Shown here in pieces: positions 17,223-45,638 of a stretch of 64,000 bases of DNA (its first letter is position 1; the number at the start of each line of letters is the position of its first letter). The position numbers were made by a program, and so were the translations under genes. Origin of the DNA: Mytilus galloprovincialis. Its lineage: Eukaryota > Mollusca > Bivalvia > Mytilida > Mytilidae. A model generated the notes under the pieces. The model made no database searches. It worked only from the letters and a program-made list of their open reading frames with translations, and was not told the DNA's origin. Location: assembly GCF_965363235.1 (NCBI RefSeq), contig NC_134845.1, positions 12,152,101-12,216,100 of the forward strand, read 5' to 3'.

Positions 17223-17257
17223 GTCATTGTGTCATTGTGTCATTGTGTCATTGTGCT
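17223..17257. repeat. Short tandem repeat, 10-bp unit TCATTGTGTC
   Basis: About three and a half head-to-tail copies of GTCATTGTGT. No function is visible. Confidence 0.9.
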
Positions 17258-18580: not shown

Positions 18581-18961
18581 TATGCTCGTTTAATTAGATT
18601 TTACTATAGACTACTACAGTATTTGTTGTTTTACATTTATTTTATCAATCAATAAGCGATAAACATAGACTTTAAACTATCTTATTCTATGTGTTAACAA
18701 ATCTGTTTATATGAAAAATACTCGTGAGAAACAATAGACAACATTATTTTATGATTTTTTTTTCAACATTTTGAACAAAGTTTTAACCGTATATTTGATT
18801 AAAGTTTGAGATCGCAAACCACTGTATTGATTTTAACAGGTACATCATGGGTTGGAAATAATCGTCTCCCAAACGTATCGCCGCGAGTTATACATTTATT
18901 CTCCGTCTGTCCGGAACATAGCAATACTCAGAGACCGTTTAGAACACACATTTCATACTTA

Positions 18962-21702: not shown

Positions 21703-22279
21703 TTAAATAAACTTCGTTCGTCCGAAGTCTCAAACTACATCATTTAAAAAAAAACCAAGAATGAATGAAAAAGTTGTATTGTTAGGAGTTTTATGATCCA
21801 TAAATGGACCTCAAATGATAGCAAAATTCATTTTAGATGTCGGAGATATTTGACATCTTAGTTTCTTCGTAATACAGGCATTGTAGAAAAATAATTGATA
21901 TTTTACAATATGATTCTGAACTCTAGAATGACTCGATACAGAAAAAATAAGACAGTGGAAAGAGACCTGACAGTGAATGAAGACTCTAGACAATTGCATC
22001 TTCCTCGTGACATCATTCCTCTTATAACATGAATACTATATGATGTTCGGAAACCTTGGACCTGTAGCATGTTTTAAAAAAATAATATTTTACTTTTTTC
22101 CTTACATAACGGGTAACCAGCCGGTGCCGTTTGTGAGGTTATACAAAACAGATTTTGTTTGCCTGTTATTCGTGAATTTTTAAAAAATGGGGTAAAGCAA
22201 ATGTAGTAAATTGGAGTTAATTTAAATTGATATTTTGCACAATTGGTCATTTAAATGCTTCTTGTTTAAGATTAGAATA

Positions 22280-22409
22280 TAGAAGAAGAAGAAGAAGAAG
22301 AAGAAGAAGAAGAAGAAGAAGAAGAAGAAGAAGAAGAAGAAGAAGAAGAAGAAGAAGAAGAAGAAGAAGAAGAAGAAGAAGAAGAAGAAGAAGAAGAAGA
22401 AGAAGAAGA
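22280..22409. repeat. Pure (GAA)n/(TTC)n microsatellite, about 43 units
   Basis: About 130 uninterrupted bases of GAA. All long reading frames here (poly-Arg, poly-Leu, poly-Ser) are artefacts of the triplet. It directly abuts the 3' end of a minus-strand LINE, so it is probably that element's expanded tail. Confidence 0.97.
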
Positions 22410-22560
22410 TTTATTATTCCAATCAAGTGCCCTTGATGGGCAGCATAGCATGTACACATAACACGATACATCATGATTAAAATTGTAACAGAAAAACATT
22501 TTATGTTCTAAAATGAAACAATAAAAAGTTCAGACACAGATGTTATTATCTTCATTCTAT
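22410..22560 (-). mobile_element. 3' end of a minus-strand LINE
   Basis: On the minus strand the sequence reads GCTATGCTGCCCATCAAGGG, then ATTGGAATAATAAATC, then the (TTC)n tract. This matches the 3' ends of a mussel retroelement family with simple-repeat tails. The 5' limit is unclear and no coding part is present. Confidence 0.5.
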
Positions 22561-24741
22561 ATAAGTGCAATGAGTGCAAATATATAAGCGAACCATGTGT
22601 GTAATCTGAATTTAAAAAATTTAAACCAAGAGATATTTTTAGAAAGTTGGTCAACCATTGTAGAATATTAAAGACGCCATATGATCTGTATATATAGGGT
22701 ATAAACGGCATTTCAAGAAAATCCTTTAGTTCTCAAATTCTTTATTGTTTACAAAATCTCTCCAACTATAAATAACTATAAACCACTTTTGCTAAGGTAT
22801 TAAAGATGTTGCAAATTAAAAATTATTCATTGTATTTGGTACATTGACATTTGTAAGCATATTTGTGAGTTTTGATTTTGTTCGAGTAAAGAGTAATTCA
22901 AATTTCGAGAAATGTACTAATAGAACAATTTCGTGTTGTCGTTATACACATTGTAATATGATCAGAGGGGAGGGGTTTCCTGGAACGTGTGGTTTTGTGT
23001 TTCTATAAGGGATTTCAATGTTTTATAAGGGTCTTAAAGGGAGTTCTTCATTTCCACATTCCTTACTTTTGAATGGTCATATTTCTTTATCTTTAAAAAT
23101 AACGCTTTCTCTGTAAAAATCTCATGACAATTTAACTTCTTAATTTATACATAATTGTATGATTTATTCATTCTGTACGTCGTACATTCCTGTACCAGAC
23201 TATTCATAATCAGTATTTCATAATCTAATTAGTTATTTTCCATTGTTATTCTTTATACTTTTGCATTTCATTATCCTCTATCATTTATTTACTTCCGCCG
23301 CACGGCAAATGGGGCATTAAGTGTGTCCCTTAACCGTCCATCCTTCCGCCTGTCGTACCGTCCGTCAATCTGTGTGTTTGTCTCATGACACATATAAGCA
23401 AGCTTGAGTGGGGGCATTCGTGTCATCTGACAAATTCTCAGACTTTCTTAAATTTTCTGTATTGTACGTTACATTTTATAATTGTTTTGCTATCTTTCTC
23501 TATTATGCAACCTCGATTAAGACCTTAGCTCACCTATACCAAACCAAGTATCTTATTTCCATTTAGAGATGTATATTTTTACAGTATATACTGAAAGTAA
23601 TCATATGACTTTTAAAAGCTTTAAATAAAACATAATGGCTATAAAATACTTACAAGAATTAACTTCTTATACAAAAAGAAATATGTTCATTATGTATATA
23701 TATAAATATATATTCATTCATGTTAGATCTTACCTTTAACATAGACTTTTTAGAACGTGACTACCTTTATAAATTCCCAAAATGATCATTTCGGGGTATT
23801 TCGAATCAATATACCTTCCATAAAATCACAATTTAGCAATATAAGTTTGACTATTTTTATATTACCGCCGAACAATAGTTTAAAGGGTATGTAAAGACTA
23901 TCTTTCCGATCTATATATTTGCAAAAGGCTAATTGACATTTCAGAATGATATACATAACCTTAAACATTGTAAAATTTTATAAAAAAAAAACCCATTCTT
24001 TCACATATCGCTCAATAGCTGTAATAAAATGCGAACACAAGGTTGGAGAGGTAATCTTGAAACATGTAATGTATAGAAAATAGTACGTTGTTAAGCCTAT
24101 TATTCGACCGATGAGTCTGCGATCTTTAGATGACCTCTATGTTTTTCTATACGCTGGCTGTCATACGACATAAGGCATCCCTATTTGACGTACACAAATA
24201 CAGCCAATTATAACGTAAGTAACTTCGGTCATTACTTTATTAAAACTAGGGAAAGTTTGAGAAAAGGTATAACCATATTAAGATCCATTTTGGTACAAAT
24301 TACTATTTATATACAGTGTCAAGCAATGATTATTTTAATTGTTCAATAATTTAGGATTGAACAAACATTTCAGCAATGACATAACTGCATGTGTAAACTT
24401 TCTGGACAGCAAAATAACATTTGTATGGATGTATTATTTGTATGATTTTTTTAAATATATTTAATTACATATTAATATATAGTACTAAGATATATAAACA
24501 ACTGTTCTAGTTTCTCCTGCAATTTAAAAAAATAAAAGGCGACAGGACTGCTTCCGGTTCCGGTTTACAGCAAGTTGAAATTTGTTCTAGTGAAATTTTT
24601 TTGGTAAATCTGTGTCAATCATTCAAATTTGTGTCCATCCAAGCCAATTTATACATCAAATCACATCATTACATCATATTATCCATATATACCACATTAT
24701 TTAAACCTTTTAACGTAATATAAGGCAGGCATTACCTGTGA

Positions 24742-25657: not shown

Positions 25658-25953
25658 ACGTCCTTCAGCTGGGCCTAAACAAATATGTATAATAGTTCAG
25701 TGATAATGGACGTCATACTAAACTCCGAATTATACACAAGAAACTAAAATTAAAAAACATACAAGAATAACAGAGGCTCCTAACTTGGGTCATGCGCAAA
25801 ACTCCAGCGGGGTTTAACATGTTTTTGAGATCTCAATCCTCCCCCTTTACATCTAGCCAATGTAGAAAAACCAAACTCACAACAATACGCATGTTGAATT
25901 AACAAATTTACTTATCAGATACATGAAATTATTTCTGTGATTGCATCTTACGT
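25658..25953 (-). repeat. R1 retroelement 3' end, copy B of the composite
   Basis: It matches 2588-2892, including ACATCTAGCCAATGTAGAAA and the junction sequence CTTATCAGATACATGAAATT. It then stops at GCATCTTACG, where an RTE LINE has inserted. Confidence 0.7.
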
Positions 25954-28900
25954 CTAGTGTGCTGTGTTTTGTGTCTGTGTGCTTGTCAACTCTCGTTTTC
26001 AGCACAGCTGGCTTACAGAAATGTGAAAAGGTGAGCAGTTTGTCAGTCTCATCCTGCCAGTACATAGCCTCTCCACATCAAGTCCTATGTAGTACCTCCC
26101 CGTGGTAACAGATGGATACTGAGCACCGAAAGGCCTCAGGCATAACTACAAGGGCGACGGGAAGATGGGTCTCGTGAGCCTATGAAGGCAGACTGTCTAG
26201 GAGAAGGAAAACTCTGATTTCTAATCCCGGTTGGTGGTACCCGTTAGTCCTTTCAAGACAACCACTCCAGCTATTGGACAAATAGTGGGGAGATCACTGC
26301 TCCGGCGGAAGATTGCTGCTAATCGACAACGGCAAAGGGCGTATGAGGACAAACAATGCCCCACCGGCCAGTGACCCGTATGGGGAAGGCTACATTCCAG
26401 ATGCCTTTACAAAACCACCTGGAACCTTTAGGTAGGCCAATCCCCCGCTTAGAGGTTAAAACGGATTACAGAAACACGAAACGAAAATTTACAAACTTTG
26501 GATGAAAGAGAAGAAAAGACCTTTACATAGAAGGAGAATGACGTTGGATGGCCACAACCGAAAGGAAGCTACACAACTGAGACTTCTGAACTCTAAATCC
26601 GCAACAAAGATAAAAACATGGAATGTGAGATCTATGTACATTTCAGGAAAAGCGCAAGCAATCGCCAATGAAATGAAGGCATATGAAATAGGCATACTAG
26701 GAATAGCGGAAGCAAGATGGAATGATGCAGGACAATCAAAACTTGCATCAGGAGAAATGATTATATACTCTTCACATATGGAGGAGAACGGTCAACATTC
26801 TGAAGGAGTTGCCATTATGCTGTCAAAAGAAGCTCAGAAAACATTCATTGGATGGGAGCCAATAAGTGCAAGAATCATCATGGCAAAATTCAAGACCACA
26901 AATAAAAGGATATCATTAAACATCATCCAATGCTATGCCCCTACAAATGGCGCAGAGGACAATATCAAGGAAGAATTCTATCAATTGCTGGTAGAAATCA
27001 CCAGGAAATGTAGCTCCAAAGACATCACAATCTTAATGGGAGACCTAAATGCTAAAATAGGAAGCGACAACACCGGTTATGAACAAGTAATAGGAAGACA
27101 TGGGCTAGGAGAAATGAATGAGAATGGAGAGCTCTTTGCCAACCACTGTGCAAATCACAATCTGGTCATCGGTGGAACAGTTTTCCCACACAAAAAATGT
27201 CATCTAGCAACATGGGTATCTCCAGACATGAACACTGAAAACCAAATAGATCATGTCTGCATCTCCAAGAAGTTTAGGAGAAGTTTACAAGATGTCCGAG
27301 TTAAAAGAGGAGCTGACGCTGCCACTGACCACCACCTTATTGAAGCTGAAGAAACACCAAATTATTGGATCAACAGGAAAACGATTTTACATATCAATGT
27401 TGGAAAACAAAACAAAGAAATCAGAATTCCCGATAGAGCCAAAAATCGCTTCTCAACATTTCAGAATGCAGCAGAGGAAGTAATTTCAATAGAAGATCAC
27501 TGGCAAGAGATTAAAAAAGCTTTCACGACAGTTTGCGAAACTTCAGTTGGTTTAAAAAGTAGGAAACATCAGGAATGGATAACGCCAGAAACACTTGTAA
27601 AAGTAGAAAAAAGGAAAAATATAAAAAAATATCCTGAACAACAGCAAAACAAGATCAGCAAAACAATCAGCCTGAAGAGAGTATACTATATCTAACAAGG
27701 ATGTCAGGAACAGTGCAAGGAGAGATAAGAAGGCATTTGTAGACAAACTGACAGCAGAAGCAGAAGAAGCAGCCAGAGCAAACAACATCAAAGCTCTGCA
27801 TGACAACATAACACTGCTAATTGGTAAATACCAGAAAGGTAGACCAGTCAAAAGCAAAGAAGGGAAAACACTTAACACACATGAAGATCAAACGAAAAGA
27901 TGGGTTGAGCATTTCAAGGGTGTGCTAAACCAGGACCCACCTGTAAGAAAAGCTGACATCTCACCCTCGGAAGAGCTTTTGGCAGTATAGTGTAAAAGAC
28001 CATTAACAGGAGAAATAAAGAAAGCCACAAAAATGATAAAGAACAACAAAGCTCCAGGTCCTGACAACATACCTGCAGAAGCACTGAAAGCAGACATTGA
28101 AACATCAACTCAAATGCTATATGAGCTGTTTGGAAAGATCTGGGAAGAAGAAGAGGTCCCGCTAGAATGGAAAGAAGGACACATGCTAAAGCTTCCAAAG
28201 AAGGGCAATTTAAGCATTTGTGACAACTATAGAGGAATAATGCTACTATCAGTTCAAGGGAAAGTTTTAAATAAAGTTATGTTAAACCGACTCAAAAATG
28301 CAATAGATGAAAAGCTTTGTGACAACCAAGCTGGATTTAGACAAAACCGATCATGTGCAGACCAAAAAGCAACCTTACGTATCATCCTCGAACAATCACA
28401 AGAGTTCAATTCATCACTCTATTCCGTTTTTGTCGACTTTGCCAAAGCTTTTGACAGCTTAGATAGAGATGTGTTGTGGCAGTTAATAAGACACTATGGC
28501 ATTCCTGAAAAAAATTATTACCATCATCAGAAACACCTATACAGGAATGCCGAGTAAGATTATAGATGAAGGTCAATTAACAGAGGCTTTTGATATAACA
28601 ACTGGGGTAAGACAAGGCTGTCTCCTTTCACCTATGCTATTCGTCCTGTCAGTTGGCAGATGGCAGACAAAATGTCATCCAATGGACCATGTTCACTCAG
28701 CTGGATGACCTAGACTTTGCCGATGACATTGCATTGCTATCCCACAACCACCAACAAATGCAGGACAAACTAGAGCAGGTTGAAAAGAGAGCAGCAGAAA
28801 CGGGCCTTTCCGTCAATCATAACAAGACCAAAGTGTTAAAGCCAAACACAAAGTCCCAAGCAAGTCTGATGGTTAACACCCAAGCATTAGAAGAAGTTGA

Positions 28901-29513
28901 ATCCTTTACATACCTTGGAAGCGTTTTGGATAATCTTGGCGGCTCAGATAAAGATGGAAAGATCAGAATTGGCAAAGCCAGAACTGCATTTAACATGATG
29001 GGGTCAATCTGGAAAGCACGAAATATCACGCTTAAGACCAAAATACGCTTGTTCAATTCAAACGTAAAAACCATACTCTTATATGGAGCTGAGACTTGGA
29101 AAACAACAAAAAACCTGCTTAATAAACTTCATGTCTTCATTAACAACTGCCTCAGGCGCATCCTTAATATCAGATGGCCTGAGAAGATATCAAACAAGAT
29201 CTTTGGGAAAAGACCAACCAATCCTTAGTTGATGAAGAGTTAAAAAAGAGAAAATGACGATGGATAGGACACACACTGAGGAAGCCAAAAACTAACATTA
29301 CAAGGCAAGCCTTACAGTGGAACCCACAAGGAAAGCGTAGCAGGGGCAGACCAAGATACACCTGAAGAAGGAATGTTCCAGCCGAGATGGAGAAAGAAGG
29401 TTACAAGCTGCACGATCTGGAGAGGCTAGAAAAGAACAGAACAAGGTGGAGAAATATCGTTAGTGGCCTTTTGCTCCACCAAGAGGCAACATAATTAAGC
29501 AAGCAAACATCTC
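25954..29513 (+). mobile_element. Nearly full-length RTE-type LINE, inactivated
   Basis: A 5' UTR of about 550 bases is followed at 26502 by an apurinic endonuclease domain: KIKTWNVRSMY, LGIAEARWN, IIQCYAPTNGAED, ILMGDLNAKIG, ENQIDHVCIS and DAATDHHLIEAE, close to the RTE/BovB type long annotated as craniofacial development protein 2-like. Reverse-transcriptase motifs follow: NNKAPGPDNIPAEALK (28033 on), NYRGIMLLSVQGK, FVDFAKAFDSLDR, GVRQGCLLSPM and FADDIALLSHN (catalytic pair), then RRILNIRWPEKIS. The frame changes near 27.6 kb, 28.5 kb, 28.68 kb (with lost sequence before FADD) and 29.2 kb; in-frame stops lie near 27988 and 29358. The 3' end is GCAAGCAA-type. It interrupts the R1-L2 composite. 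Confidence 0.9.
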
Positions 29514-31256
29514 GCCATTCTTTGCGACAGATAATTTTATACTAAGTGAATCTACCTGTGTTCGAAATCTTGGAGTTTTTCTCGATCAAACCCTCAGCAT
29601 GCAGCAACAGACAAATGCAATTACCAAATCCTGTTTCCATCAGATTCATAACATAGGACGGATTCGATCATATATAACGGAGGACCCTTGCAAAACTCTT
29701 GTATGCTCTCTTGTAACGTCGCGACTTGATTACGGTAATGCTTTGATGTATGGTGTGAATGCCTCGAGTATATCCAAACTTCAACGTGTTCAGAACACAG
29801 CTGCCAGACTAGTGACCCGCAAAAAAGAAGTTTGAACATATAACTCCAACACTTATGACTCTTCATTGGCTACCATTTAAATTCCGATGCCAGTACAAAC
29901 TGTTGCTTTACGCATTCAGAGCCTTGCATGGACTTGCACCTTCGTATCTGTGTGAACTAATACATTTTTACAAACCAACACGATCGTTACGATCTGAAAA
30001 TGCTTCTTTAATTGAGATGTCAAAAAATGAACGGACCAAAATGTATGGTGAACGGAGGTTCGATGTGGCGGCCGGGACTCTGTGGAATAGCCTTCCAACA
30101 AATCTTCGAAATGAACAATCGCTAGAACTATTGAAGAAAGGACTAAAGACGCGTCTATTCAAAGTTGCATTTGTGGATCGCTCATAAGTTAAGACCTGGC
30201 ACTCTGATTGGTTGTATTTGAATGATGTTGATTTCTAATATTTTGTACATTTTAGTCTGATTTTATGTGTTTCTGTATATTTTGATTTAACATTTTTATT
30301 TTTATTTTTTTTACAAGCTGGAGTATTTAAGTAACTTATTTTTAAAAACAAAATTCAGCAATTTTAGAAATATTTAGTTAAGATAACAAGTTTTCAAATT
30401 TTTACTTATTCATTAATAATTCTTTTAAGTCATTTTTAATCAAGTTGCTGGAGTCTAAAGCTTTTTATAGTTGATTTGATGCTGTATGCTTTTAAACATA
30501 TATATTTTGGTATATTTTTAACTTTGAAATTTCGTGTATGTACGAACTTGTGTACGTTTTTTTTAACATCTAAAGCGCTTAGAGTAATTGTAGTTTTACG
30601 CGTCTGGCGTACACAATTATAATCCTGGTACCTTTGATAACTATTTACACCACTAGGTCGATGCCACTGCTGGTGGACGTTTCGTCCCCGAGGGTATTTG
30701 TATTTGGCACCACTTTTTGGAATTTTGGATCCTCAATGCTCTTTAACTTTGTACTTGATTGGCTTTGTAAATATTTTGATATGAGCGTCTTATGTAGACG
30801 AAACGCGCGTCTGGCGTACAAGATTATATTCCTGGTACCTTTAATAACTATTTACACCACTGGGTCAATGCCACTGCTGGTGGACGTTTCGTCCCCGAGG
30901 GTATCACCAGCCCAGTAGTCAACATTTCGGTGTTGACATGAATATCAATAATGTGGTCATTTTTTTTTTATAAATTTCCTGTTTACAAAACTTTGAATTT
31001 TACGAAAAACTAAGGATTTTCTTATCCCAGGCATAGATTACCTTAGCCGTATTTGGCACCACTTTTTGGAATTTTGGATCCTCAATGCTCTTCAACTTTG
31101 CACTTGTTTGGCTTTATAATTATTTTGATATGAGCGTCACTGATGAGTCTTTTGTAGACGAAACGCGCGTCTGACGTACACAATTATAATCCTGATACCT
31201 TTGATAACTATTATTGCGCTATAAAAATGCCTTGTAATAATAATAATAATAATAAT
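29514..31256 (+). mobile_element. L2/CR1-like LINE 3' fragment (copy 2), interrupted by R6
   Basis: It begins TTCTTTGCGACAGATAATTT exactly as copy 1 does at 2901. It encodes TLSMQQQTNAITKSC, VTSRLDYGNALMYG, then FRALHGLAPSYLCELI, NERTKMYGERRFDVAA and LWNSLPTNLRNEQSLE, ending VAFVDRS. One frame shift after RKKE separates two open stretches (29599-29835 and 29855-30187). R6 is inserted at 30598-31212, after which GCGCTATAAAAATGCCTTG and the (AAT)n tail continue. It is less degraded than copy 1 but lacks the RT core. Confidence 0.82.
30598..31212. repeat. Repeat R6, CpG-rich, with internal duplicated modules
   Basis: The module AGACGAAACGCGCGTCTGGC with ATTATAATCCTGGTACCTTT occurs at both ends and in the middle, and GGACGTTTCGTCCCCGAGGG occurs twice. 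This is a mussel repeat built from tandem modules. It splits the LINE's 3' end, whose two halves match copy 1. Other copies are at 44630-44876 and 55372-55470. The family is uncertain. Confidence 0.6.
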
Positions 31257-31384
31257 TTAAATAGCTAATCTTGAATAAATTCCACTTCATGCCTTACATA
31301 TCGTGTACTGTGTTACAACTCATATGTTCTACTAACGCGGGAAGGTAAAACTAGGCCACCGAAAAACTGAATTTTAAGTTCCAT

Positions 31385-31500
31385 CTAGGTTGTCGAGTGC
31401 ATGGTCTAGAACGCTGTGCACAGTTCGGGCGGTGTTATCTCGACATCCCTATAGCACGAGTTTGAATCCCGGCTAGGCAAGAAAAATAAAATTTGCAGAT
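31385..31500 (+). repeat. tRNA-like/SINE-like relic, copy B
   Basis: TAGGTTGTCGAGTGCATGG (A-box-like) and GAGTTTGAATCCCGGCTAG (B-box-like) lie about 70 bases apart, as in a tRNA or tRNA-derived SINE head, followed by an A-rich stretch. Copy A lacks part of the middle. I did not find a clean cloverleaf. Confidence 0.35.
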
Positions 31501-31959
31501 TAGGTGTTTTATCTAAAAAAAAAATGTTTGAATTTGAATTTGAAAATACTTGCTAATGCAAGGAAATCTTATATCTGAAAAGGCTAGACTCTGTGATACT
31601 TTTCGGGAGGGATATAACTTGACGTGAAAAATATACCTTCAATAAGTAATAGCATGTGTCAATAAGATGATATTTTGTTATTACCTTTTGGATATGTATT
31701 TCTTCTCCATCAGTTGTATTCGGGACTCAGGAAAAGTACAGTTAACATCTAACATTTACCTGGACCAATACAGAAATAGGCACTTTATTACTCCAACGTC
31801 AGTTTATCGCGAAAGCTCGGCAATAAAAACTGTACTCGATTCGCAATACATGTGCAAAACATTAAATCCGGTGTTTTACGTCTTGTTTTTAGATTAGTTG
31901 ATTTGTGCCACGTATCTTTTTTTTTTACTTAAACCAATTTCATTGCTTTTTACGGTTTG

Positions 31960-32150
31960 CTGTTACACCCAGGTTAGAGGAGTGTTGCGTGCTCACAAAC
32001 ATGTTTAACTCTACGTTGTTATATGCGGTATGGGTGTTTCGCTTTGTAGAAGGTCATACGGTTGCCTATAATTGCTTACATATACTTCATTTAAACTTTT
32101 ATGGCAAGTTGTCTCATTGGCAATCATACCACTTCATTTTGATTTTTTTT
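31960..32150 (+). repeat. Interspersed repeat R7, copy B
   Basis: This is the counterpart of 9610-9830, with GAAGGTCATACGGTTGCCTA and GTTGTCTCATTGGCAATCAT. It keeps the family's usual GGCAATC where copy A has GTCAATC. Confidence 0.55.
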
Positions 32151-32395
32151 TATGCTAATAATTTTTATGTCCGTAAGCCCTGCATGTTACACAAAACAAC
32201 ACATTGGAAAATTAAATTTTTATTTGACATTGTTCCAATTATGTATGTTTATCCGATAACATACCTTTTTCCTAATTTAATTTTCGTGCGTTTAGAAAAT
32301 AAGTTTTATATTTGACTAGCATCAGAATGTATAGGAGGCTGTCCTCCAGTTTTTAAAATTGCAAAAAAGCAGTAAATTGAAATTAAAGAAGATAA

Positions 32396-32401
32396 TTTAT
32401 T
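32396..32401 (-). terminator. Polyadenylation signal AATAAA, HSPA12-like gene 2
   Basis: Same context as gene 1 (GAAATAAATTATC on the minus strand), about 80 bases past the stop. Confidence 0.5.
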
Positions 32402-32478
32402 TCAACAAAACACATATATTCTACAAATTTATATTTAGTTTAAAGAAACAAAAAACCCTGTGTTGTACATTTAATGAA

Positions 32479-35400
32479 TTAGCGTAGGAAGTCAAATTTG
32501 GCAGCAGTGCTTTTCCCTGTATGCTTAACAATGGCTTTCACTTCCAGTTCCGTCTTACCAAAAATCATTTTAACACCAACATCCCGACAAACGCCTAGTT
32601 TTGAATCAGGAAGTTCGACAGAAATTTTACCGTGAAGACTACAACCCCTTTCATCTGTGTATCTCGGATTTTTGTTTGTAGACGTCCACACATTAACTGC
32701 CATTGATGTCTGATCGGAAGAAACCGGAGAATAGATTTGTTCTTTAATCTCCTCATCGATTCTCACAGATTGTCCGATTTCTACGTGCTTACTAAATCGA
32801 CCTCTGCACAAGACATCACCATCTTCATCAATAAATTTTTTATCTTCCGGGTCTTTCCCTTCATCAAAAGGACTGCTACTTTCTATGCCGTATGTAACTT
32901 TACACACCCTGGTTGAGATAACCGTTTGGTCAAAACCAAACTGGACTGCTCCCTTCAATACGGCTAGACCTGCTTCAGGTGGGATAATTACAATTTTGGA
33001 TGGAAATGCTTTTTTGACTGCATGTTGTAGTACAACTGATTCAGAAAACCCACCTACCATAAGAACTGTGTCGGTCCCTTTTACTTTTGGGTCATCAAAA
33101 ATCTTCTGAAGATGCGATACAATGTAGTCACATGGTTCTGCAAACATGTCTTTAGCAGCACTGGATTCCAGGCGCAGTTTATCTTTGTCTAGTTTTGCTA
33201 AATCGTTACTTTGAAGATCCCTCCCCAACACCTTCTTGTGGGCTTCTCTAAGGGACACAGGCACTCGTATAGTGAGTTTACCTTTCTGGTCCGATTTAAT
33301 GGTTCTTTTCTTTATCTCAAATTCACGTTGTAAATCTAAGTGACCACCTTTATCCTCTTCTCGAAATATCTTTAATGCAGGCTTTCCTGCAAATTCTTCC
33401 AAAAAATGTTCGAAGGCAAGATCGACCTTCGTACCACCCCAGTCGCCACCATTTGCCATATACAGCTGTTTAATGGATTCATCCGACTGTACCTCCTGTA
33501 CCGTTATATCTATGGTACCACCTGACAAGAAAATGTTAAGATATGGTCATACCTACATAATAATTAAAAAAAAATGAATTGCATTTAAATCGGCATTACA
33601 TGTAGCTGCAATATCGACATAAATATATAAAAAAAAAGATGTGGTATGATTTCCAATAAGACAACTTTTCGCAACAGACTAAATGATACAATAATTAAAT
33701 ATAGATCACCGTATGGCCTTCAACAATGAGCAAAGTATAAAATAAAGTATATTTATTTTGAAAACATTTACAAGAACGGAATTATAGTTCTCTACTTGTA
33801 GTTAGTTTGGTTCAATTTTTTCTTACCTATTGTATCTGCAGTATCATTAAACGATGATATTGTGTTATCATTTCACGATATTAAAAAAAACTCTGAAAAT
33901 ATTAACTAAATCTCTTTGAATATTTTTTTGGTGAACATTGTAGTTTGTTTTATCAAGCATTAACGATAAAATGTCCTCACCTCCTGCATCCAGTATAAGG
34001 TATTTTGTCCCTGGTGACAGTGCATCTATTGTAGTTTTTCCACCTGCAACCTTTAGTTCGTTAGGTATATGTTTACAGTACACAGAAGCTGCTTCGGGTT
34101 CCAATGCTAAAATCAACTGAGTGTTTCGTACACCTCCCTGAAATCATTACAATAAGTAAAAAATCATCTGACTTATGTTTAGCTGAATTTAAATATGCAA
34201 AGGGTACAATGTATCTTAATACTAAACACACACCAGCAATGCTGTAAATCTTCTTTTCATATAACAACTATTATTTTTACTTTTAAGATTTGCTACGACT
34301 GCAAAGTCACATATGATTACTAGTAGATCGAGTACCTAAACAATTAATACAGCGACAAAAGTTATAAATATAAATTATGGCTACTTATAAAGTTTTTTTT
34401 TTATACAGCGGCATACTTTTCAGCTGGCTATAGGGTAACCAAATTTGATAAATTAATAACGTTTTAAAACAAAATGATAAGAAAAGCTCACTTGGACCTT
34501 CGATCCAGATGAGCGAAAAAAAGGGGGGGGGGGTCATTTGAGACGGATTTTCTTTTTTCGTGCAAAGTGCGAACAGTTTTATTTAGTTAACTCAACGACT
34601 GAAAGTGTATTTTATAAGTAGATATACATTGTAGCAGAAAATGTCTAAAAAAGAGTAAAACAATAATAACATCTGCTAAAAGTAGGAACATTTGCCTCAT
34701 TGTTCGTGAGTTAAAAAATTGTAGATTCTATAAAATATTCTCTACACAGTCGTTTTTTTAAGCGGTAGTCATTTTGTCAAGTTGTTATTTCATTTTTCAG
34801 AGCAATTAATGCGGATGTTTTTACCTGATATTTCTGTAAGTTATTTATAATTTATCAAAACACGTATCCATTATTCAAAAACGTAGTCACTAAGGCTCAG
34901 TGGACATTAATATTACTTAACCGATACGACAATGTTCTGAATTATACAATACATTTATACACATGCAGTACCTTCACAGCAGATTCTCTCATGAACTGTT
35001 TAGCCGCATCACTCCAGATGGCGGGAACTGTCAACACCCATTGTATTTCGTCTGGTTGTAATAATGCATGTTCCAAAATATTCCTTTTAGTCAATTCTGT
35101 CATCATGTGATTTTTCAAGAACTTTATACTTTCAGAAAACACTTTCATTGCCAACATAGGTTTTCCAAGGTCGTCATCAATCGTTAGATCTCGCGGCATA
35201 TCCTGCAGTAGTACAGTCTCATATTAATAGATTATATTACATCAACATGCAACACTCTAAATTTTCAATATAGAAACACAAGTTACCATGTAGTATGTCA
35301 ATCGATTCGACCATTATCAATGCGCCCATCATCTTATAGTAACACAGAGTATATGTTCTACACCCCGTATACTGTAATACAACACGTTTTTATTCCTAGA

Positions 35401-36759
35401 ATAATCTTAGTAACACACTGTATTCTAAGTGACACAATAAAATTAAGAATGGAAATTGGGAATCTGTCGAAGAGACATCAACCCAACAAAAGAGCAAACA
35501 TCAATCGAATGCCAGAAATGGTTCTTCAACACAGCTAGAAAATCCCGCACCGAAGGCGTACTCTAGATGGCCCCTAAACAATGTGTACAAATTCAATGAC
35601 AATGAAGGCCATACTAAACTCCAAAACATATAAATGATCTAGAATTAAAACTCATACAAGACTTACAAAGACCAGAGGCTCCTCACTTGGAACAGGTGCA
35701 ATTATGCAGCGGGGTTAAACGTGTTCAGTGAAATATCCCCCTTCCCCTATACCTCTAGCTAATGTAGAAAAAACAACACACACAACAATACGTTTAATAA
35801 AACTCAGTTTAAAGAAGTCCGAGTCCGATGTCAGAATAGGTAACAAAAGAAACTAAGCCAAATGACAATAATACATAAACAAAATTAACAAAGGATTACT
35901 AGCAGTTACTGACATGCCAGCTCCAGACCTGAATAAAACCGATTGGAAAATTATGTCTTCACCCTATGAAAATCAAGCACAATCCCTCCCGTTAGAGGTT
36001 TAGTATCATATCTTCATGAAATATATGAGAAGAACATAACCCGTAACAATGTATTCTTAAAAACACAATGTGTTGTAATTTACACAATAGTATTTGCGAG
36101 CTTAGAGTGAACTATTTAAATGTCAGATATTACATGGGGCAAATATTTTCACACCCTCCCCTTAATCGTGTACATATTCATGTTGTAAATATGTTTGCGC
36201 CTAATTAATATGATTAGAGTTGTTTGGCTGTAAAACAATAAAAAAGTATGAATAGTTATATAATCTAAAAAATCTTGTTATTTTAAATGAGAACGAATAG
36301 AAAACGATATAGTTCTTTGTACATTCAATAATTGAAAGTCAATGTAATAAAAAGTATAACTAATCCAAGAATTCATATATAGAAAATATTCAACATGGTA
36401 CCCAACAACAGTGGTAATATTGACATATAAGTGAAAAATACCTGGTGTTTGTACAGATTCATTTTAAATCTGCGGAAGTAGTGCCATCCAATATGGTTAT
36501 CTTCTTGTGCTAGCTCAGTATACTTGTCCTCGGCATCTTTTCCAAATGCGACAAAATTTTCATCAGGATCAAACAGAATACATGTTGGAGTTTTCAGGGA
36601 CATTCCAGTTTGAGATCCAGTAGCCCAAGTATAAGTTGATATCGATAATGGGTTAGTTTTGTAGTCATTCAGTGTAGCAAACGCATAACCAGAAAATGTA
36701 GTACCGAAGTCAAAGGCTACCACTAACATAGGGGTTTTCTCTACCTCGGCAGCAGCCAT
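32479..36759 (-). CDS. HSPA12A-like: HSPA12-like protein, gene 2 (heat shock 70 kDa protein 12A-like)
   Basis: Coding exons 36442-36759, 34972-35202, 33981-34137 and 32479-33521 join at the same positions and phases as gene 1, giving 582 aa with no stop. It starts MAAAEVEKTPML. Motifs are DFGTTFSGYAF at residues 17-27, DAGGGTIDI at the exon 3/4 junction and GGFSES in exon 4. Exon 2 has two extra codons (ILEHALLQPDE against DLQTAFKPDE in gene 1). The last about 164 residues differ from gene 1 at only two sites, while the preceding 84-residue subdomain differs at about 30. The role is as for gene 1: actin-fold ATPase, client unknown. Introns hold R1 (35452-36050) and R7 (33615-33725) insertions absent from gene 1. 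Confidence 0.93.
33615..33725 (-). repeat. R7 fragment in HSPA12 gene 2 intron 3
   Basis: GATGTGGTATGATTTCCAAT through CCGTATGGCCTTCAACAATG is the reverse complement of the common mussel R7 repeat. It is not present in gene 1's intron 3. Confidence 0.6.
35452..36050 (-). repeat. R1 retroelement 3' end in HSPA12 gene 2 intron 1
   Basis: It runs from GGAAATTGGGAATCTGTCGA through ACATGCCAGCTCCAGACCTG to AGGTTTAGTATCATATC, co-linear with the reverse complement of 56440-56860 over about 600 bases. It extends farther toward the coding end than the R1 copies at 2467 and 25658. It makes intron 1 of gene 2 about twice as long as that of gene 1. Confidence 0.7.
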
Positions 36760-36795
36760 GTTGATATTTTACTATAATCTGAAATTAATATATAA
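36760..36795 (-). promoter_or_regulatory. Conserved 3' splice site in the 5' UTR, HSPA12-like gene 2
   Basis: The minus strand reads TTATATATTAATTTCAG then ATTATAGTAAAATATCAAC before the ATG, matching gene 1. Gene 2 has no earlier ATG here, supporting MAAAE as the start. Confidence 0.5.
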
Positions 36796-37498
36796 AACAC
36801 TTGAAAGATGTTACACTTACACCATGGCTTCACCTTTCTATCAAATGTATATTAATTTAAAACACAAAATATATAGATTCTTACTATGTCTATCAAATTC
36901 GTGTGTTTTATAAATTAGTTAAAACGACTACACCGAGAGTGGCATATTATAAAGAGATATATTGTGTTTGCAGATTTACATAAAGAAATGCAAGAAATAA
37001 GTACACACAAGCAGAACTACATTTTAATACGTACCGCAGCTTAATGTTGATGCTTACGGAATTGAATGGACTGCAGATCCTAGATAGCTGATAATAATTT
37101 TGTTCATACATTTTCTTGAATCCGACGAGTTAGAGCCTGAGACAATGCAAACACTATTGTTGGTCGTATTGAACTACAATATACATTCTGATGTTCTCTG
37201 TTTTTGCATTGTCTTTGGTTCTGTCTCATTGACGTTATAACCCTATGCACAATGCAGTTGTCAACCATATATTAATGTTTACTCGAGTCATTTATATTTG
37301 GATTGATAAACTACATGTACCTACATTTGTATTGGCTAGAAGGCCTGTGCATGGGTATAAAATAATAATGATAATGTAACTATATCTTATTATAGAAATA
37401 CATTTCAAACCACGACCCATATAATTTAACAGTAATAAAAGAAAGAAAAACCACATAACCAAGATGTTATGTATACATTTATGCTTACCTAATTCTTC

Positions 37499-37550
37499 AA
37501 ACTTGAAACCTGATTTGACACAAGGAAGGAAATTAAAAATATGCTTGTTA
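37499..37550 (-). other. Candidate noncoding first exon of HSPA12-like gene 2
   Basis: TTCAAGTTTGAAGAATTAG followed by the donor GTAAGCATAAA at 37499 corresponds to 18530 in copy A. The intron to the acceptor at about 36776 would be about 0.7 kb. Its upstream boundary and promoter are unresolved. Confidence 0.4.
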
Positions 37551-38840
37551 AAATAGATTTTACTATAGACTACTACAGTATTTGTTGTTTTACATTATCA
37601 ATCAATAAGCGATAAACATAGCCTTTAAATTATCTTATTCTATGTGTTTACAAATCTGTTTATATATGAAAAATAGTCATGAGAAACAATAGACAATATA
37701 ATTTTATGTATTTTTTCAACAGTTTGAACAAAGTTTTAACCGTATATTTGATTACAGTTTGAGATGGGAAACCACTGTATTGTTTAAACAGATACATCAT
37801 GGGTTGGAAATTATTGTCTCCCACTCGTGTCGCCGCGAGTTATACAATTATTTTCCGTCTGTCCGGAAATAGCAATACTCAAAGACTGTTTACAAACATA
37901 CATTTCATACTTATTAGGATGTTGTGTCGTCGTATTCTCTTGGCCAGGCTATATTGTCTATTTCTTTTGACAACTTTTACGATTTATTGGAATTTGACCA
38001 TTTGTTTTAATTACTGTCAACGACACCATGCGAATGGAAATTATCTGAGTCGTTAAGTACAAAACTCTCAGACAGGGTAGGATTGTTTGCCATCATGAGT
38101 AACTGACCATATTGTATCGCCATTCTTATTCGACTATTTTAACAGCAAATTATTGGACTTGGGGTATTTATTCTAGAATTGTGACAATAACGTCTTGTGA
38201 ACTCAATTCCATGTAGCTAGTTTTTACAGAAAGCTCTAATACTTGGTAAGATTGTTTGGCATCATGTGTAGTTGGATATTATACTGCCAATTTAATTTGA
38301 TCTGAACATATTTACGGGAGGTATGGGACTTTGACAAATAACAATTATAACAAAATACAAACTGATTTCATTGTGATGGACTTTGTCAAAGCATAAACAA
38401 AAGAATACTGTAAAAAAATGATTATTAATGGAGTATTGCAAGAAAAACAATCCTTGAACTCGAATCATTGAAAACAGTTTACAGAAAGCTATCATATTTA
38501 GTAGGATTGTTTGCCATCATAAGTAGAGGACCATACTGTATCATCATTTAATTCGGTCAATTTTGTATTATTGTGCCACTAACATTCAAGACTTGTTAAT
38601 GTGAATTCTTTGAGACCGTTTGAAAGAAGGCTGTTTAGTACTTGTGTGTGCCTAAATTTATGTGTAGTTGACCATGTTGTACCACCATATGATATAAAAT
38701 TCTCATGACAATTATTTTATTTCTGAAATTATCCATAATTATAAAAATAATTATGATTTATTCCTTCTGTATATCGTACATTTCTGTACCAGACTATCCG
38801 TTATCAATATTGCATAATCTAATTATTTTATTTTAGTTAT

Positions 38841-39962
38841 CACTACAACTTCTCAGAGTCTGAATTGACCAGTTTTTGTGCTCGACCAGTAAAATCGAGC
38901 ACACATTTTACTCGACTAGTCTCGACATTGTCTCAACTGTACTTAACTGTACTTAAGTGTACTCGACTAGGTCTCGACTTTACTTAATTAGTCTGATTCA
39001 GTACTTGATGATCTTTGTGTAGTCTGAAATGGTCTTGACCAAGGCTCGACCTGTCTCGACCTGTCTTGACTAGTCTCGACCTGTCTCAACCAGTCTCGAC
39101 CTGTCTCGACTAGTCTTGACCTTCAAATTTAGTTTTGACTGGTGTAAATCAGCCCATCTAACTAAATTAAATATTGATCTTACAAAATTCAAGCTTATTA
39201 GGTAGTTTGATTTATTGCTGTGAAATGAAAGAATTTAATTTTACAATATGTAAAAAAAAAATTATTATAGAAAAATTCAGATAGGAATCTTTAATTTTTT
39301 TTATAACTTTTTCAAATTAACTTGGATTTTCATCAAACTATGCAGATATCTTAGATATATATCAAGCTTACTGAATCCCATTTCATTTAGTTTTTTGTTG
39401 TTTTGCTGTAAAATTTAAGAATTAAAGTAATTTTGGTAAAAAAGCTAGGATTTGCAATTCGGACAAAATAGAGATAGTACACTTTAATTTTTTTAATAAC
39501 TTTTTCAAATCAACTTGGATTTTCATCAAACGATGCAGCTATCTTAAATGTATACTAAGTTTACTAAATTCTTTCATTTCACAGCAATAAATCAAACTAC
39601 CTAATAAGCTTGAATTTTGTAAGATCAATATTTAATTTAGTTAGATGGGCTGATTTACACCAGTCAAAACTAAATTTGAAGGTCAAGACTAGTCGAGACA
39701 GGTCGAGACTAGTCAAGACAGGTCGAGACTAGTCAAGACAGGTCGAGACAGGTCGAGCCTTGGTCAAGACCATTTCAGACTACACAAAGATCATCAAGTA
39801 CTGAATCAGACTAATTAAGTAAAGTCGAGACCTAGTCGAGTACACTTAAGTACAGTTAAGTACAGTTGAGACAATGTCGAGACTAGTCGAGTAAAATGTG
39901 TGCTCGATTTTACTGGTCGAGCACAAAAACTGGTCAATTCAGACTCTGAGGAGTTTGTAGTG
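38841..39962. mobile_element. CACTA-like foldback element, about 400-bp arms, TAT TSD
   Basis: The 1122-bp element has ends CACTACAACTTCTCAGAGTC and its inverse. Arms 38841-39239 and 39565-39962 are near-perfect inverted copies, rich in CTCGACCTGTCTCGACTAGT-type tandem motifs. The spacer holds two diverged direct repeats (about 39287 and 39481). TAT flanks both ends, and the unoccupied site is seen in copy A at about 23247 (GTTATTCTTTATAC). CACT termini with a 3-bp TSD indicate the CACTA/EnSpm group. No transposase; non-autonomous. Confidence 0.88.
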
Positions 39963-40399
39963 TATTCTTTATACTTTTTCATCCCATTATCCTCTATCAT
40001 TTATTTTTGTAACCCCATCGCACCGCAAATAGGGCGTTACGCTTCACCGCCTTCCGTCCGCCTGTCCAAACGTCCACCCATCCGTCTGTCTTTCCGTCTC
40101 ATTACACTTATTATCAGTAAGCTTGAGCGGGGGCATTTGTGTTCTCAGACAAAAACTTTCTTTATTTTAACTAACTTTTCTCTTTTAAACGTTATATTTT
40201 ATTATTGTTTTCCTATCTTTCTTTATTATGTAAACTCGATCAAGACCTTAGCTCATCTATACGAAACCAAATATCACACACTCACTACTAGTATATGAAT
40301 TTGTCAATAAATAAGTGTTTATATGTACTGTTATTTTTTACTTATGTTCGATTTTTTAAATAGGTTATATATTATAATGATATGTGCCAGACTTTTAGT

Positions 40400-40455
40400 C
40401 AATCTAATTAAAATATAGATCTCTGATTTCAGAGATCTATATTTCAATTAGATTG
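40400..40455. mobile_element. 56-bp palindromic Mutator-like MITE
   Basis: CAATCTAATTAAAATATAGA is mirrored at the right end, giving an almost perfect hairpin. It is flanked by ACTTTTAGT and ACTTTTCAG, an imperfect 9-bp TSD. The first 14 bases equal the TIR start of 2075-2457, so the two are one family reduced to bare ends here. Confidence 0.75.
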
Positions 40456-41344
40456 ACTTTTCAGTTCAGACCTATTTATAACAAAATGTCTGGTAACAGA
40501 CATGTTTTTTCATATTGTTTAATCCATAATACGTTTACGTCTGGTTTCTTTGAATTCAAACATTCACACCCTGAGCCTTTGTAATGGTGCAGTATACTAC
40601 TTCCATGCAGAGATGTATTTTTTGACATTATATACTGAAGATAATCATATGACTTGCAAAAGCTATAAACAAAACATAATGGCCATTTTATACTTACAAG
40701 AGTTAACTTCTTGTACAAGGAAGAAATATATTAATTATGTACATATATAAGTACATTCATATTAGATCTTAGCTTTAAAATAGAATTTGCACGTGACAGA
40801 TTGTTTAGAATACCTTTGAAAATTCCCAAATGATAATTTCTGGTAATTTCGAATCAATATGCCTTCCATAAAATCACAATTCAGCAATTTAAGTTTCACT
40901 ATTCCTAGCTTACCCAGTCTATGGAAGAAGCGAATTGATTAAAACGTTTCTTATATCACATAACGATATTGTCTAATATCAATTGTAAATATGCAGACAT
41001 TCCTTGCGGCAAATGTTGTTTTCGGCAACGAAAAATTAAGAAAATACGAACTTTAAAACTTAATTCTCAAATATAAACAACAATTGCGTCTAAATATGCA
41101 TTCACAAGTTAGTTAAAAGCAAAAGTTTATGTCCGTGTAAAATCTAATGTGCTGTATTTTTCTTATATACATAAATAAACAAATGTTATTATTCTAATAT
41201 CAATGGGATACTTTTAAAATATCATAGCAGTGTTTTTGTTATATCAATATTAGTACTTATTAGTATTATTATTAGACTGCTGTACCAATTTTCTTTTTTA
41301 CAATTTTACCTTTTATGTTTGTTTTGTTCACGCATCGTTGTAAA

Positions 41345-41575
41345 TAGAACAGAATTTGATGAAACTGTCATACACGCGAGAGGCTTATCGCTATACAACC
41401 AGGTTCAATCCACCATTTTCGAAATTTGAAATGCCAGTACCAAGTCAGAAATATGACAGTTATTGTCATTCGTTTGGTGTGTTTTATCATTTGATTCTGC
41501 CATTTGATAAGGGACTTTCTGTTTTGAATTTTCCTCGGAGTTCAATATTTTTGTGATTTTACTTCTCAGTAGTAT
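41345..41575 (+). repeat. Interspersed repeat R4, copy 2 (nested)
   Basis: CGAGAGGCTTATCGCTATAC, GACAGTTATTGTCATTCGTT and TTTGAATTTTCCTCGGAGTT match R4. It sits within the 3.69-kb transposon. Confidence 0.6.
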
Positions 41576-41929
41576 TGTATGTAAATAAGCAGTTTTTAGA
41601 CCAATACTTAAATTCAAATTGGTTTTGGCAACATCTTTCAAATTTCTCAATTGGTTTTGGAAGCAAAACTAATCAAATAAGGGTTTTATGAACAATGTCG
41701 TCATAAAACGGCTAAAAATCAAAATTATTGTTCACATACATGTATATAGTATCTAGCAAATTTTATAATGAACGTATCGAAATAATATATATCCGATATT
41801 ATCCAAACGCACGCATGGAAAACTTTCTTTTTTGGTAACAATGAAACTAACTTGTTCCAAAGATGAATCATACTGTCCTCGTTCAGATTGATTCGACAAA
41901 ATCTGACCTGTACTTTTGAATCTCGTTTT

Positions 41930-42285
41930 TTTTATACAAATTAGACGGTTGGTTTTCCTGTTTGAATGGTTTAGTTTAACACTAGTAATTTTTTGGGTTC
42001 TATATATCGTGGTGTTCCAGGGGCGGATGCAGGAATTTTCGAAAGGGGGGTGCTAACCCAGGGCACCCAGGGCAAAGGGGGGGTGCAAAACATATGTCCC
42101 GATACAAATGCATTGATCGGCAAAAATAAAGGGGGGGTGCGCACCCCCAGAACCCCCCCCTGGATCCGCCACTGTGTTCGCTATGAGCCAAGGCTCCGTA
42201 CTTTGATCTATAATGGTTTACTTTAAACAAATTATTACTTTGATGAAAAGTTGTCTCATTCGAACTCATACACCATTTTGTTTTA
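41930..42285 (+). repeat. R3 repeat, nested, split by a MITE
   Basis: GACGGTTGGTTTTCCTGTTT, then after the MITE GAGCCAAGGCTCCGTACTTT and AAAAGTTGTCTCATTCGAAC follow the R3 consensus in the orientation opposite to 1195-1780. Confidence 0.55.
42018..42174. mobile_element. 157-bp GC-rich MITE with CAGNGGCGGAT TIRs
   Basis: Left end CAGGGGCGGATGCAGG and right end CTGGATCCGCCACTG are inverted, with G-runs next to each. TGTTC is found on both sides (42013-42017 and 42175-42179). These ends are like those of short elements found across animals and often placed near hAT, although only five TSD bases match here instead of eight. Confidence 0.7.
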
Positions 42286-44629
42286 TTTATAAATCTTTAA
42301 AATTTCCTCTCATAAATAACTGCTTTCCAGTCCTCCAAAAACGTCATTAGAGTGCTAAATCTTTAAGTTTAGTAGTGATTTGTTCCAGTCAAAAAAGGAC
42401 AAATTTTATTACGTATAAAGCTGTCAAACTGAATTTTACACCCCCTTAACACAGAATTGTTTCTATAATTTTGATATAATTTGTTCCACCCGTAGTACAC
42501 TACACTGTAAAAATCTTTTTGAGATAGAGCATGTGCGATTTCTTTTAATTTGAATTTATTGTTTGAAAGAAATGCACTACGAAATAACTGTGTTCTCGGG
42601 CCAAAAGGAAGAAGTTTATTTGCAAGGCCTCTGAAAATTGAATAAAATTAAGAATGGAAAAATAGTACTAGAATACTGAACACCGGATGACCGTAAGTTA
42701 TTGTGGATGGTCACAAGCACTTTTCTTAGAAAATAATAAGGTTTATCACTTATAAGATAAACCAATTTAATGAAAGAGATTTGATTAATATATTTATTTT
42801 CCTTAAATGACATATTTTATCATTCGGATCTGCATCTCGCTTCCGGCTTATAAACATCACGTGACTTCAGCCTCACAGTTGAACTAGCTACTCTGGATAA
42901 GTTAAAGTTTCAAAACCCACTCACCTCCCCTCACACTCTACCAACAATTACTTGTGTCTGCTGCTGTTTTATTCATTTTTCAGGCTGTTCAGAGAGAAGC
43001 CTGATACTTAATACGTTGTTGGACAAAATAAAGATGACTAGACTAAGCCGATGGAATTGCTTGCTGAACAAACTTTTGAGAACTATCGTATTCTAAATAT
43101 TCGAGTGAGTGTTATACAGTTTTACCAGGACAATCAGCCAGCGGCAATGTGATTGGAACAATCAGTATGATTTTAGTTTATCCACCTGGAACACATACAG
43201 AACTTTAAATTTTTGTTATGAACTTTCAGAGTTTATATATCCAATAATAGTATAATTGTTTTCATTATATGGTAATAAAATATTTTGTCACAGTAAAAGG
43301 TTGTTTGGCGGGGTCTGGCAAGATTAAGGGGTTATGATCCGTTCCTGTATTGGATCTTATTAGTTTTTTACTTTCCTGCGTTACCGCAGGAAGTTCTGTT
43401 GAAACCATCTCATGTCTACCCTGAGTGGCCGGTTCTGAATTGGTACCAGTTCGAGCTTAACTGTTTTATGATCTAGAAATTGTTAAATTGTTAATCTTTA
43501 CTCCCCTGAAACCAGGGGGTGATGCGAATAAGACCCGACGTATCTGGGGATCATGGCCCTCGTTCTCTTTAGGATTTAACCTGGAGGAACTATAGCATCC
43601 ATTGCTACCAATGGTGCACAGATTTGTCAGTTAAATCAATCATGTCGGCATTCTGTTATCTTGTCAGACCTCGTCATTCAAAGTGAACTGTGGCTGTTAA
43701 TTCCACATAAATTGCTTGTTTGTTATGCTTTGCCTTAAACTTGATTCTTTAATTAACCTGATATTACCTGAAAGTGAGGTCAATGTACCGAGATATATTT
43801 TTGCTGAGTGTAAATGGTGAATAAATGACAGGCAATTAAACCTCGTCGTAATAACTATTACATTGTATAGTGATACAAATCAGAATACTCTGGTTTGTTG
43901 TTATATGTTAATTTATATAATTTTACATTTTCGAAATAATAAGTTCATGTAAGAGTCAATTTTGTTACAGGTACTAAATTCTGGAGATATTGATCCTCAA
44001 ACATTAAACCGGTCATGATCTAAGTTGGTGAATTATGTTTTCGGTTTTCTTGACATGCATTGTGACGTGTTATCGTATTCATTTTATATTAGAAAACTAT
44101 AGCAGTTATATTAGAAAAGTATTGCATTCATAAATTTTTGATATTTAAAACACATCGCTATTATATAAGACAAACATCGCATTGAAATAATGAAATATAG
44201 CAGTATCTTAGACTTATAGGTGATTTTGGCTTAGCAAACAATTGACTTCATCTCAATTTCATTCCACTGGATTTGCTACATGATATTTATTGAATGTGAA
44301 CATCTACAAATGATAAATCGTACATTTATGTTTCATTTATTCAACAATTCAATTTTCTCGTATAAATACACCTTGCCTGTTATTATATAAAATAATTCAT
44401 GGAAATTATACAGCAGACGTATGTCGTGTTAAATATCACCCTGTTTTAAGAAAAGAGTCATTACTTTATACCGAGAAATATGCCTTTCTTCAACAAATGC
44501 TAACATTCGTCTGAAATTTCCCACAATGCAACTCGTTGATATGAGACAATATCACTCGTTGATATAAGAAACGTTTATATCGATTCACTTCTTCCATAGA
44601 CTGTTACCACAGAAACAATAGTTTCATAG

Positions 44630-44876
44630 ATATTTTATAAATTTCCTGTTTACAAAACTCTGAATTTTTAGAAAAACTAAGGATTTTCTTTTCCCAGGAG
44701 TAGATTACCTTAGCCGTATTTGACACAATTTTTTGGAATTTTGGGTCCTTAATGCTCTTCTACTTTGTACTTGTTTGGCCTTTTTAGCTGTTTTGAAATG
44801 AGCGTCACTGTTGAGTCTTATGTAGACGAAACGCGCGTCTGGTTTATTAAATTATAATCCTGGTAACTTTGATAAC
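44630..44876. repeat. Repeat R6, copy B only
   Basis: AAATTTCCTGTTTACAAAAC through AGACGAAACGCGCGTCTGGT to TAATCCTGGTAACTTTG. Copy A reads straight across (ACAATAGTTTAAAGGGTATG at about 23872), so it was inserted after the duplication. Confidence 0.65.
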
Positions 44877-45638
44877 TAGTTAATATGTACGTAAAGACTA
44901 TATATATTAGCAAAAGGCTAACGAACATTTCAGAATGATATTCATAACCTTAAAGGAGAAGGTAACCCAAATTTTACAAAACAAATATTCTTGCACATAT
45001 CGCTAAATGACTTATATAACAACAAGCGAACACAAGGTTGGAGAGGTAATCTTGAAACACATAATGTATTAAAAATAGTACGTCGTTAAGCATATTTTTC
45101 GACACATGAGTCTGTGACCTTTAGATGATCTCTATGTGTTTCTATACGCTGGCTGTCATACGACAAACGGCATCCCTACGTGACGTACACAAATATTATT
45201 TTACAGCAAATTTTAACGTAATTTCGGTCATTACTTTATTATAACTAGGGAAAGTTTGAGAAAAGGTATAACCATATTAGGGTCCACTTTTAGTACAAAT
45301 GGAGAACTTCGTACTATTTATATACAGTGTCAAGCAATGATGATGTTATTTATTCAATAATTTAGGATTGAACAAACATTTCAAGATTGACATGACTGCA
45401 TGTCTAAACTTGCTGGACAGCAAAATAACATTTGTATGGATGTATTAATTGTATAATTTTTAAATAGATTTAATTACATAATAATAGCACTAAAATATAT
45501 AAACAACTGTTCTAGTTTCTCCTGCAATTTAAAAAAAGGCGACAGATAGATACCAAAGGGTCATCGAAACTTATTTATATATAAATCAAGTCAAGAGAAA
45601 CTGACAATATCATGACCAAAAAAAAGAAATGACGGAAT

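Follow-up and report, generated by a model that had tools for sequence, protein, structure and literature searches.

Patchwork exchange is the probable source of a divergence step within a tandem pair of putative HSPA12-like genes in the mussel Mytilus galloprovincialis

Neighbouring Hsp70 copies that undergo gene conversion under purifying selection are described for mammalian HSPA1A/HSPA1B, where conversion was inferred in the tandem genes, and for Caenorhabditis hsp70 pairs (PMC5865164, PMC3966223). The pair reported here resembles them in consisting of adjacent Hsp70 copies, but youth is limited to the gene's 3′ end and the DNA downstream of it, while the ATPase core is old and the introns are unrelated. 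Local peaks of divergence between less diverged stretches, which our locus also displays, are described for the red/green opsins (about 24 kb apart) and for Drosophila CG18281/CG17637 (PMC3924837, PMC2588116); unlike in those cases, most of the gene falls within the divergent island, whose introns are not homogenised but unalignable. Bivalves carry an expanded Hsp70 family (PMC4759782, PMC8382680), and HSPA12 transcripts are reported from Mytilus edulis (PMC8774603). The present pair likewise consists of HSP70-domain genes, and this literature, as far as the cited texts go, gives copy number and expression rather than exchange. Among the titles and abstract openings listed from the open literature, none deals with HSPA12 genes of bivalves exchanging DNA.

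The window, a 64-kb stretch of DNA analysed as a whole, contains two four-exon genes on the minus strand, g1 and g2, each intact at 582 codons and 582 aa (Table 1). The label HSPA12 is provisional, and hence we call the genes putative and HSPA12-like. The Pfam profile PF00012 (HSP70) scores 29.5 and 25.2 bits for the two genes, above its gathering cut-off of 20.6, and the best-matching PDB chains are those of BiP (E ~1e-7). DFGTT (residues 17–21), EPEAA (196–200) and GGGT (235–238) are identical in g1 and g2; the ATP-binding motifs of HSP70 are given as DxGTT, EPxAA and GGxT (PMC12692333). The isoelectric points (5.94 and 6.03) and masses (65 kDa) lie below the HSPA12 values in the same source (pI 7.17 and ~74 kDa), which are averages and not defining limits. 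The pair is predicted to encode distant Hsp70 proteins. An AlphaFold model of exon 4 has a mean pLDDT of 38. A tblastn search of the window at E up to 1 returned no HSP70-like exons beyond g1 and g2, no relatives were found in viral and prokaryote contigs, and the window holds no tRNA genes. Further along, an open frame at 51205–51648 on the minus strand matches PF00474, the sodium:solute symporter family, at E = 6e-21 and is probably part of a neighbouring transporter gene.

Table 1 Positions in the window of the exons of both genes and of the flanks of the two duplicated units.
Feature	Position	Strand	Evidence or remark
g1 exon 1	13334-13657	-	Splice borders and intact frame
g1 exon 2	12487-12711	-	Splice borders and intact frame
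g1 exon 3	11891-12047	-	Splice borders and intact frame
g1 exon 4, divergence step at 10639	10162-11204	-	Changepoint, splice borders
g2 exon 1	36442-36759	-	dS against g1 0.51
g2 exon 2	34972-35202	-	dS against g1 2.06, saturated
g2 exon 3	33981-34137	-	dS against g1 0.18, low; flanked by two unalignable introns
g2 exon 4, whole (last exon)	32479-33521	-	Splice borders and intact frame
g2 exon 4, near-identical 3′ part, codons 424-582	32479-32955	-	9/477 mismatches, dS 0.08
g2 exon 4, divergent 5′ part, codons 237-423	32956-33521	-	110/566 mismatches, dS 0.60, dN/dS 0.23
Unit 1 downstream flank, with insertions	2589-10161	.	Five aligned blocks against unit 2
Unit 2 downstream flank	25659-32478	.	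Collinear with 2589-10161; interrupted by a LINE (25953-29516) and repeats (30599-31208)
Unit 1 upstream flank	13761-24545	.	Six aligned blocks from 18240 on, with unit-specific insertions
Unit 2 upstream flank	36863-45545	.	Collinear partner; alignable from 37174, first 311 bp not

Alignment of 9145–11213 with its partner yields 170 mismatches over 2009 aligned sites, and the sharp identity step that an earlier note on this DNA had placed in exon 4 proves real, since changepoints in all mismatches and in synonymous changes both lie far beyond permutations. The single best changepoint for all mismatches falls at 10639 in g1 and 32956 in g2, separating 4.0% mismatch on the 3′ side from 19.5% on the 5′ side, with a log-likelihood gain of 56.2, where the largest gain among 1000 shuffles was 9.9. 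Synonymous changes place it at codon 424 (gain 20.0 against a maximum of 11.1; equalled in 0 of 5000 codon permutations), with dS 0.60 before (52/126 sites) and 0.08 after (8/103; Fisher P = 4e-9). An abrupt step in neutral divergence within the gene, one mark of an interlocus gene conversion tract, is present; the flat dS along exon 4 that the note had named as evidence against its reading is not seen. In the alignment to BiP, codon 424 coincides with a gap following residue 369, within the final conserved part of the nucleotide-binding domain; codons 424–582 comprise the very end of that domain and the C-terminal region. The note's counts by eye were borne out: the last 164 residues (419–582) do differ at two sites, 485 and 512; 10162–10620 and 32479–32940, for which about ten base differences were given, differ at nine; the 3′ flank is near-identical as stated (9145–10161 against 31501–32478, 49 mismatches in 958 aligned sites); and the 84-residue stretch from HKFRQE (g1 residues 286–369), for which about 30 differences were claimed, has 30 of 84. 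Its placement directly before the last 164 residues was mistaken, for residues 370–418, of which 7 of 49 differ, intervene, and the tract edge at about codon 424 lies some 55 codons past the end of the block.

The note had offered two causes, conversion of the 3′ end or a helical subdomain driven apart by selection. The second would mean positive selection on block 286–369 within a duplication of uniform age. Besides its 30 changed residues, the block has a non-synonymous density of 40/197 against 67/789 in the rest of the core (P = 9e-6), 2.4 times higher (odds ratio 2.7), which speaks for selection. Identity to BiP at aligned positions (21/66 in residues 282–365, 30/103 before and 22/60 after) gives no sign, over those 66 positions, that the block is generally less conserved; this too favours selection, and the idea of a simply poorly conserved region is unsupported by it. 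Residues 282–365 align with 245–311 of chain 6hab_A (numbering of that alignment), a lobe that is presumably subdomain IIB. As the cause of the step, however, selection fails, since dS rises with dN: in the block dS is 0.75 and dN 0.24, giving a dN/dS of 0.32 (bootstrap 95% 0.17–0.56; 0 of 1999 replicates reach 1, with 1 of 2000 dropped), and the maximum-likelihood estimate for residues 282–365 is 0.21. Synonymous divergence is raised not just there but across most of the core, and the non-coding DNA on the 3′ side is as low in divergence as the coding DNA beside it. The synonymous density of the block (26/55) equals that of the rest of the core (88/222, P = 0.36), and the step is therefore an age step, with the amino-acid contrast following mainly from age; the block additionally has a faster protein rate, whether from relaxed constraint or from selection at a few positions. 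A dS that is not flat refutes positive selection as the origin of the step, and we give that reading next to no credence. As to age, conversion of the 3′ end is supported: synonymous sites and non-coding DNA alike show low divergence on that side of the step, through ~8 kb of flank with insertions counted.

Exons 1, 2 and 3 differ at 45/318, 55/225 and 13/157 positions, and the two parts of exon 4, with all dS values, are given in Table 1. Exon 2 is saturated (dS undefined in 31% of bootstraps). Maximum-likelihood dS agrees (0.42, 2.09 and 0.24 for exons 1–3, 0.65 and 0.08 for the 5′ and 3′ parts of exon 4), and YN00 gave no value for exon 2, codons 237–281 and the 3′ part of exon 4. At synonymous sites, exon 3 differs from exon 2 (P = 6e-7) and from the 5′ part of exon 4 (P = 0.004), and exon 1 differs from exon 2 (P = 9e-4). 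Introns 1–3 of g1 and g2 are unalignable, the best among the matches listed having E 0.004 and lying off the diagonal; intron 3 has one 25-bp match (E 0.011) roughly in register. In simulations with an author-chosen indel setting, which left out transposon turnover and replacement, g1 introns mutated to K = 0.12 or 0.14 aligned in all 60 of 60 runs over ~95% or more of their length at E 1e-3. With K raised to 0.3, a value close to the Jukes–Cantor distance of the most diverged upstream block (0.277), means were 75–90% with a minimum of 43%, falling to 14–25% at K = 0.5 and ~0–1% at K = 0.7. Whatever the synonymous rates, the intragenic non-coding DNA looks older than the non-coding DNA on either side. 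The introns hold repeat-like pieces (g2 intron 1, 35437–36044; g1 intron 3, 11627–11827; g1 intron 1, 13154–13288), so part of their dissimilarity may reflect replacement rather than age.

In an old duplication, an old core could also have been kept by selection, with conversion homogenising the region while exchanges reaching the core were removed because each copy requires its own kind of core, leaving a peak of divergence. This account is compatible with a raised core dS, because blocking conversion would raise dS too. It has theory and examples behind it (PMC3924837, PMC2588116), it suits the amino-acid excess in residues 286–369 (40/197 against 67/789, P = 9e-6), and both genes are intact at full length. 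In the opsins, however, introns are homogenised and exons differ, whereas here the introns are unalignable, and unalignable introns can by themselves block conversion without selection. We consider such protection unlikely.

Self-comparison places both genes in a collinear direct tandem duplication, 2589–24545 against 25659–45545, with units of 20–22 kb. Downstream, mismatches in the five aligned blocks number 23/294, 45/1057, 1/44, 11/219 and 49/958 (7.8, 4.3, 2.3, 5.0 and 5.1%), with no heterogeneity among 45/1057, 11/219 and 49/958 (P = 0.64) or on adding the far block (P = 0.11), the 44-site block being left out of both tests. Comparing the synonymous sites of exon 4's 3′ part with the two larger downstream blocks shows no difference (P = 0.15), and linked non-coding DNA at similar divergence, a further mark of an interlocus gene conversion tract, is present on this side. 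Upstream, the first 103 bp carry 14 mismatches, and the six further blocks (70/709, 88/778, 17/126, 70/302, 52/313 and 63/615; 10–23%) are heterogeneous (P = 2e-8). Three of the six upstream blocks exceed two of the five downstream blocks in divergence (221/2102 against 94/2015, P = 1e-12), and all blocks summed give 360/2843 against 129/2572. A single old pair with a converted end is in this respect an oversimplification, as the upstream flank also lies far below the introns in divergence. Both flanks represent genuine duplicates. Independent transposon insertions do not explain the upstream similarity, as the blocks are collinear and are split by elements with an empty partner site.

Each unit carries insertions of its own. 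Unit 1 alone holds a 1.24-kb element at 18962–20197 with 41-nt inverted ends (90%) beside a long G run; its empty site in unit 2 lies near 37913, and upstream blocks U1 and U2, contiguous in unit 2, are split by it in unit 1. Unit 2 alone holds an element at 38841–39962 with 398-nt inverted ends that are 98.7% alike, probably a recent insertion, with an empty site in unit 1, and a LINE (25953–29516) whose endonuclease and reverse transcriptase domains are broken over several open frames. Upstream of g1, in a stretch without a collinear counterpart in unit 2, lies a ~2.8-kb element with 107-nt inverted ends (95%; 14151–16983). The 311 bp just upstream of the alignable 5′ end of g2 (36863–37173) match the g1 upstream region over 24 bp at most; beyond such matches they have no counterpart there, so g1 and g2 differ in their proximal upstream DNA. 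Just beyond the right edge of the duplicated unit are 95-bp tandem repeats with internal inverted repeats (45638–46013).

An assembly artefact, or two haplotypes joined end to end as a false tandem, would account for some of this. Alleles in a highly polymorphic animal could plausibly differ by the 4–5% seen across the 3′ half, and unit-specific transposon insertions occur between haplotypes too. Saturation in exon 2, unalignable introns and 10–23% divergence upstream would nonetheless exceed what we expect of alleles, and we judge this explanation very unlikely. A single unequal crossover is likewise disfavoured: it expects upstream-flank sequence to the left of 2589, and the upstream-flank blocks have no match in 1–2588 at E 1e-10, a short stretch in which only 2.6 kb is visible and from which insertions could displace a further unit.

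Age models were compared by AIC on neutral-proxy counts, letting the synonymous/non-coding rate ratio vary freely and leaving out the introns and the 44-site block. One age (3834.9) fits far worse than two ages with a young 3′ side and an old rest (3699.9), and an island of two ages, with equal flanks against the body, reaches 3802.9, ~103 units worse than the latter. A three-age island gives 3697.9, falling to 3690.0 when exon 3 is grouped with the upstream flank, and a five-age model has the lowest value, 3674.9. Because the young-3′/old-rest model nearly ties with the three-age island, these counts by themselves are no proof that the body is older, and that claim rests on the introns.

We favour patchwork recombination between tandem HSPA12-like copies, with patches of differing age and the youngest at the 3′ end, at a probability of about 0.72. 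Exchange would have proceeded by homologous recombination, either interlocus gene conversion or double crossover. The youngest event would have replaced the DNA from about codon 424 of exon 4 through the 3′ end and on into the flank beyond it, extending towards the unit's edge, and the identity step would be the end of that tract. The tract comprises ~2.8 kb of aligned sites at 2–5% mismatch, or 3.05 kb with the farthest block (7.8%), now spread by insertions over ~8 kb of unit 1. Outside it, the gene body (exon 1 through codon 423) would have kept its older divergence, while short exchanges confined to exons would have persisted wherever the copies were still homologous, ending at the unrelated introns; unalignable introns, a saturated exon 2 and intermediate exons 1, 3 and parts of 4 are expected under such exon-limited exchange. 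Such a layout, with a young tract starting in mid-exon and running towards the limit of homology next to an old body with unrelated introns, is the footprint of interlocus exchange. Conversion tracts in Caenorhabditis are reported as mostly 50–200 bp, with a maximum of 2,958 bp among 7,829 pairs (PMC3966223); our tract is about as long as that maximum, which makes a double crossover, segmental replacement or repeated conversion as likely as one event. We infer conversion over double crossover, as we do the direction of exchange, the introns being old rather than replaced, and the intermediate exons being separate small exchanges.

Both flanks are less diverged than the body, a pattern that calls for either two rounds of homogenisation or a single body replacement; parsimony favours neither. 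The old body may have been spared, in an old duplication whose flanks were homogenised, or may have been imported from a distant paralogue. In the latter course, which we regard as possible but rather unlikely, a distant HSPA12 paralogue would have supplied a new body for one copy (~3.1 kb, from exon 1 to codon 423, introns included), and the divergent island would be an imported cassette instead of a leftover that escaped conversion. Equally tentative is the rest of this course, in which a fairly recent tandem duplication of flank, gene and flank would have come first, its age corresponding to the ~10–11% mismatch in three of the six upstream blocks, and a later exchange would have refreshed the 3′ end. 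Import would explain why the introns are unalignable although both flanks align; the upstream flank is a true duplicate, as U1 and U2 attest, and possible bivalve donors are many, one Hsp70 orthogroup being reported with 68.1 in bivalves against 4.4 in others (PMC8382680). Against import, the heterogeneity of the upstream flank (10–23%) looks more like patchy exchange than a single clean age, and exon 3, whose dS of 0.18 would be near that of the supposed duplication, sits between unalignable introns. Going further, whole ATPase cores of distant paralogues (exons 1 to the 5′ part of exon 4, with introns) might be swapped as cassettes into young tandem copies, which is speculative and, in our view, doubtful. 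It is just as doubtful that the C-terminal region and flanks are common to neighbours and that codon 424 is a recurrent cassette border. Patchwork exchange remains our preferred history, and the locus is most likely a fairly ordinary, clear case of DNA exchange between duplicated genes.

The bivalve Hsp70 expansion and conversion between tandem genes are both already known. When expanded families of bivalve stress genes are dated or scanned for selection, each pair is usually given one age, whereas here a single pair spans dS values from 0.08 to saturation, and any dS, duplication date or tree computed over the whole gene would be misleading. If cores were swapped as units, expansion of the family would be combinatorial as well as additive.
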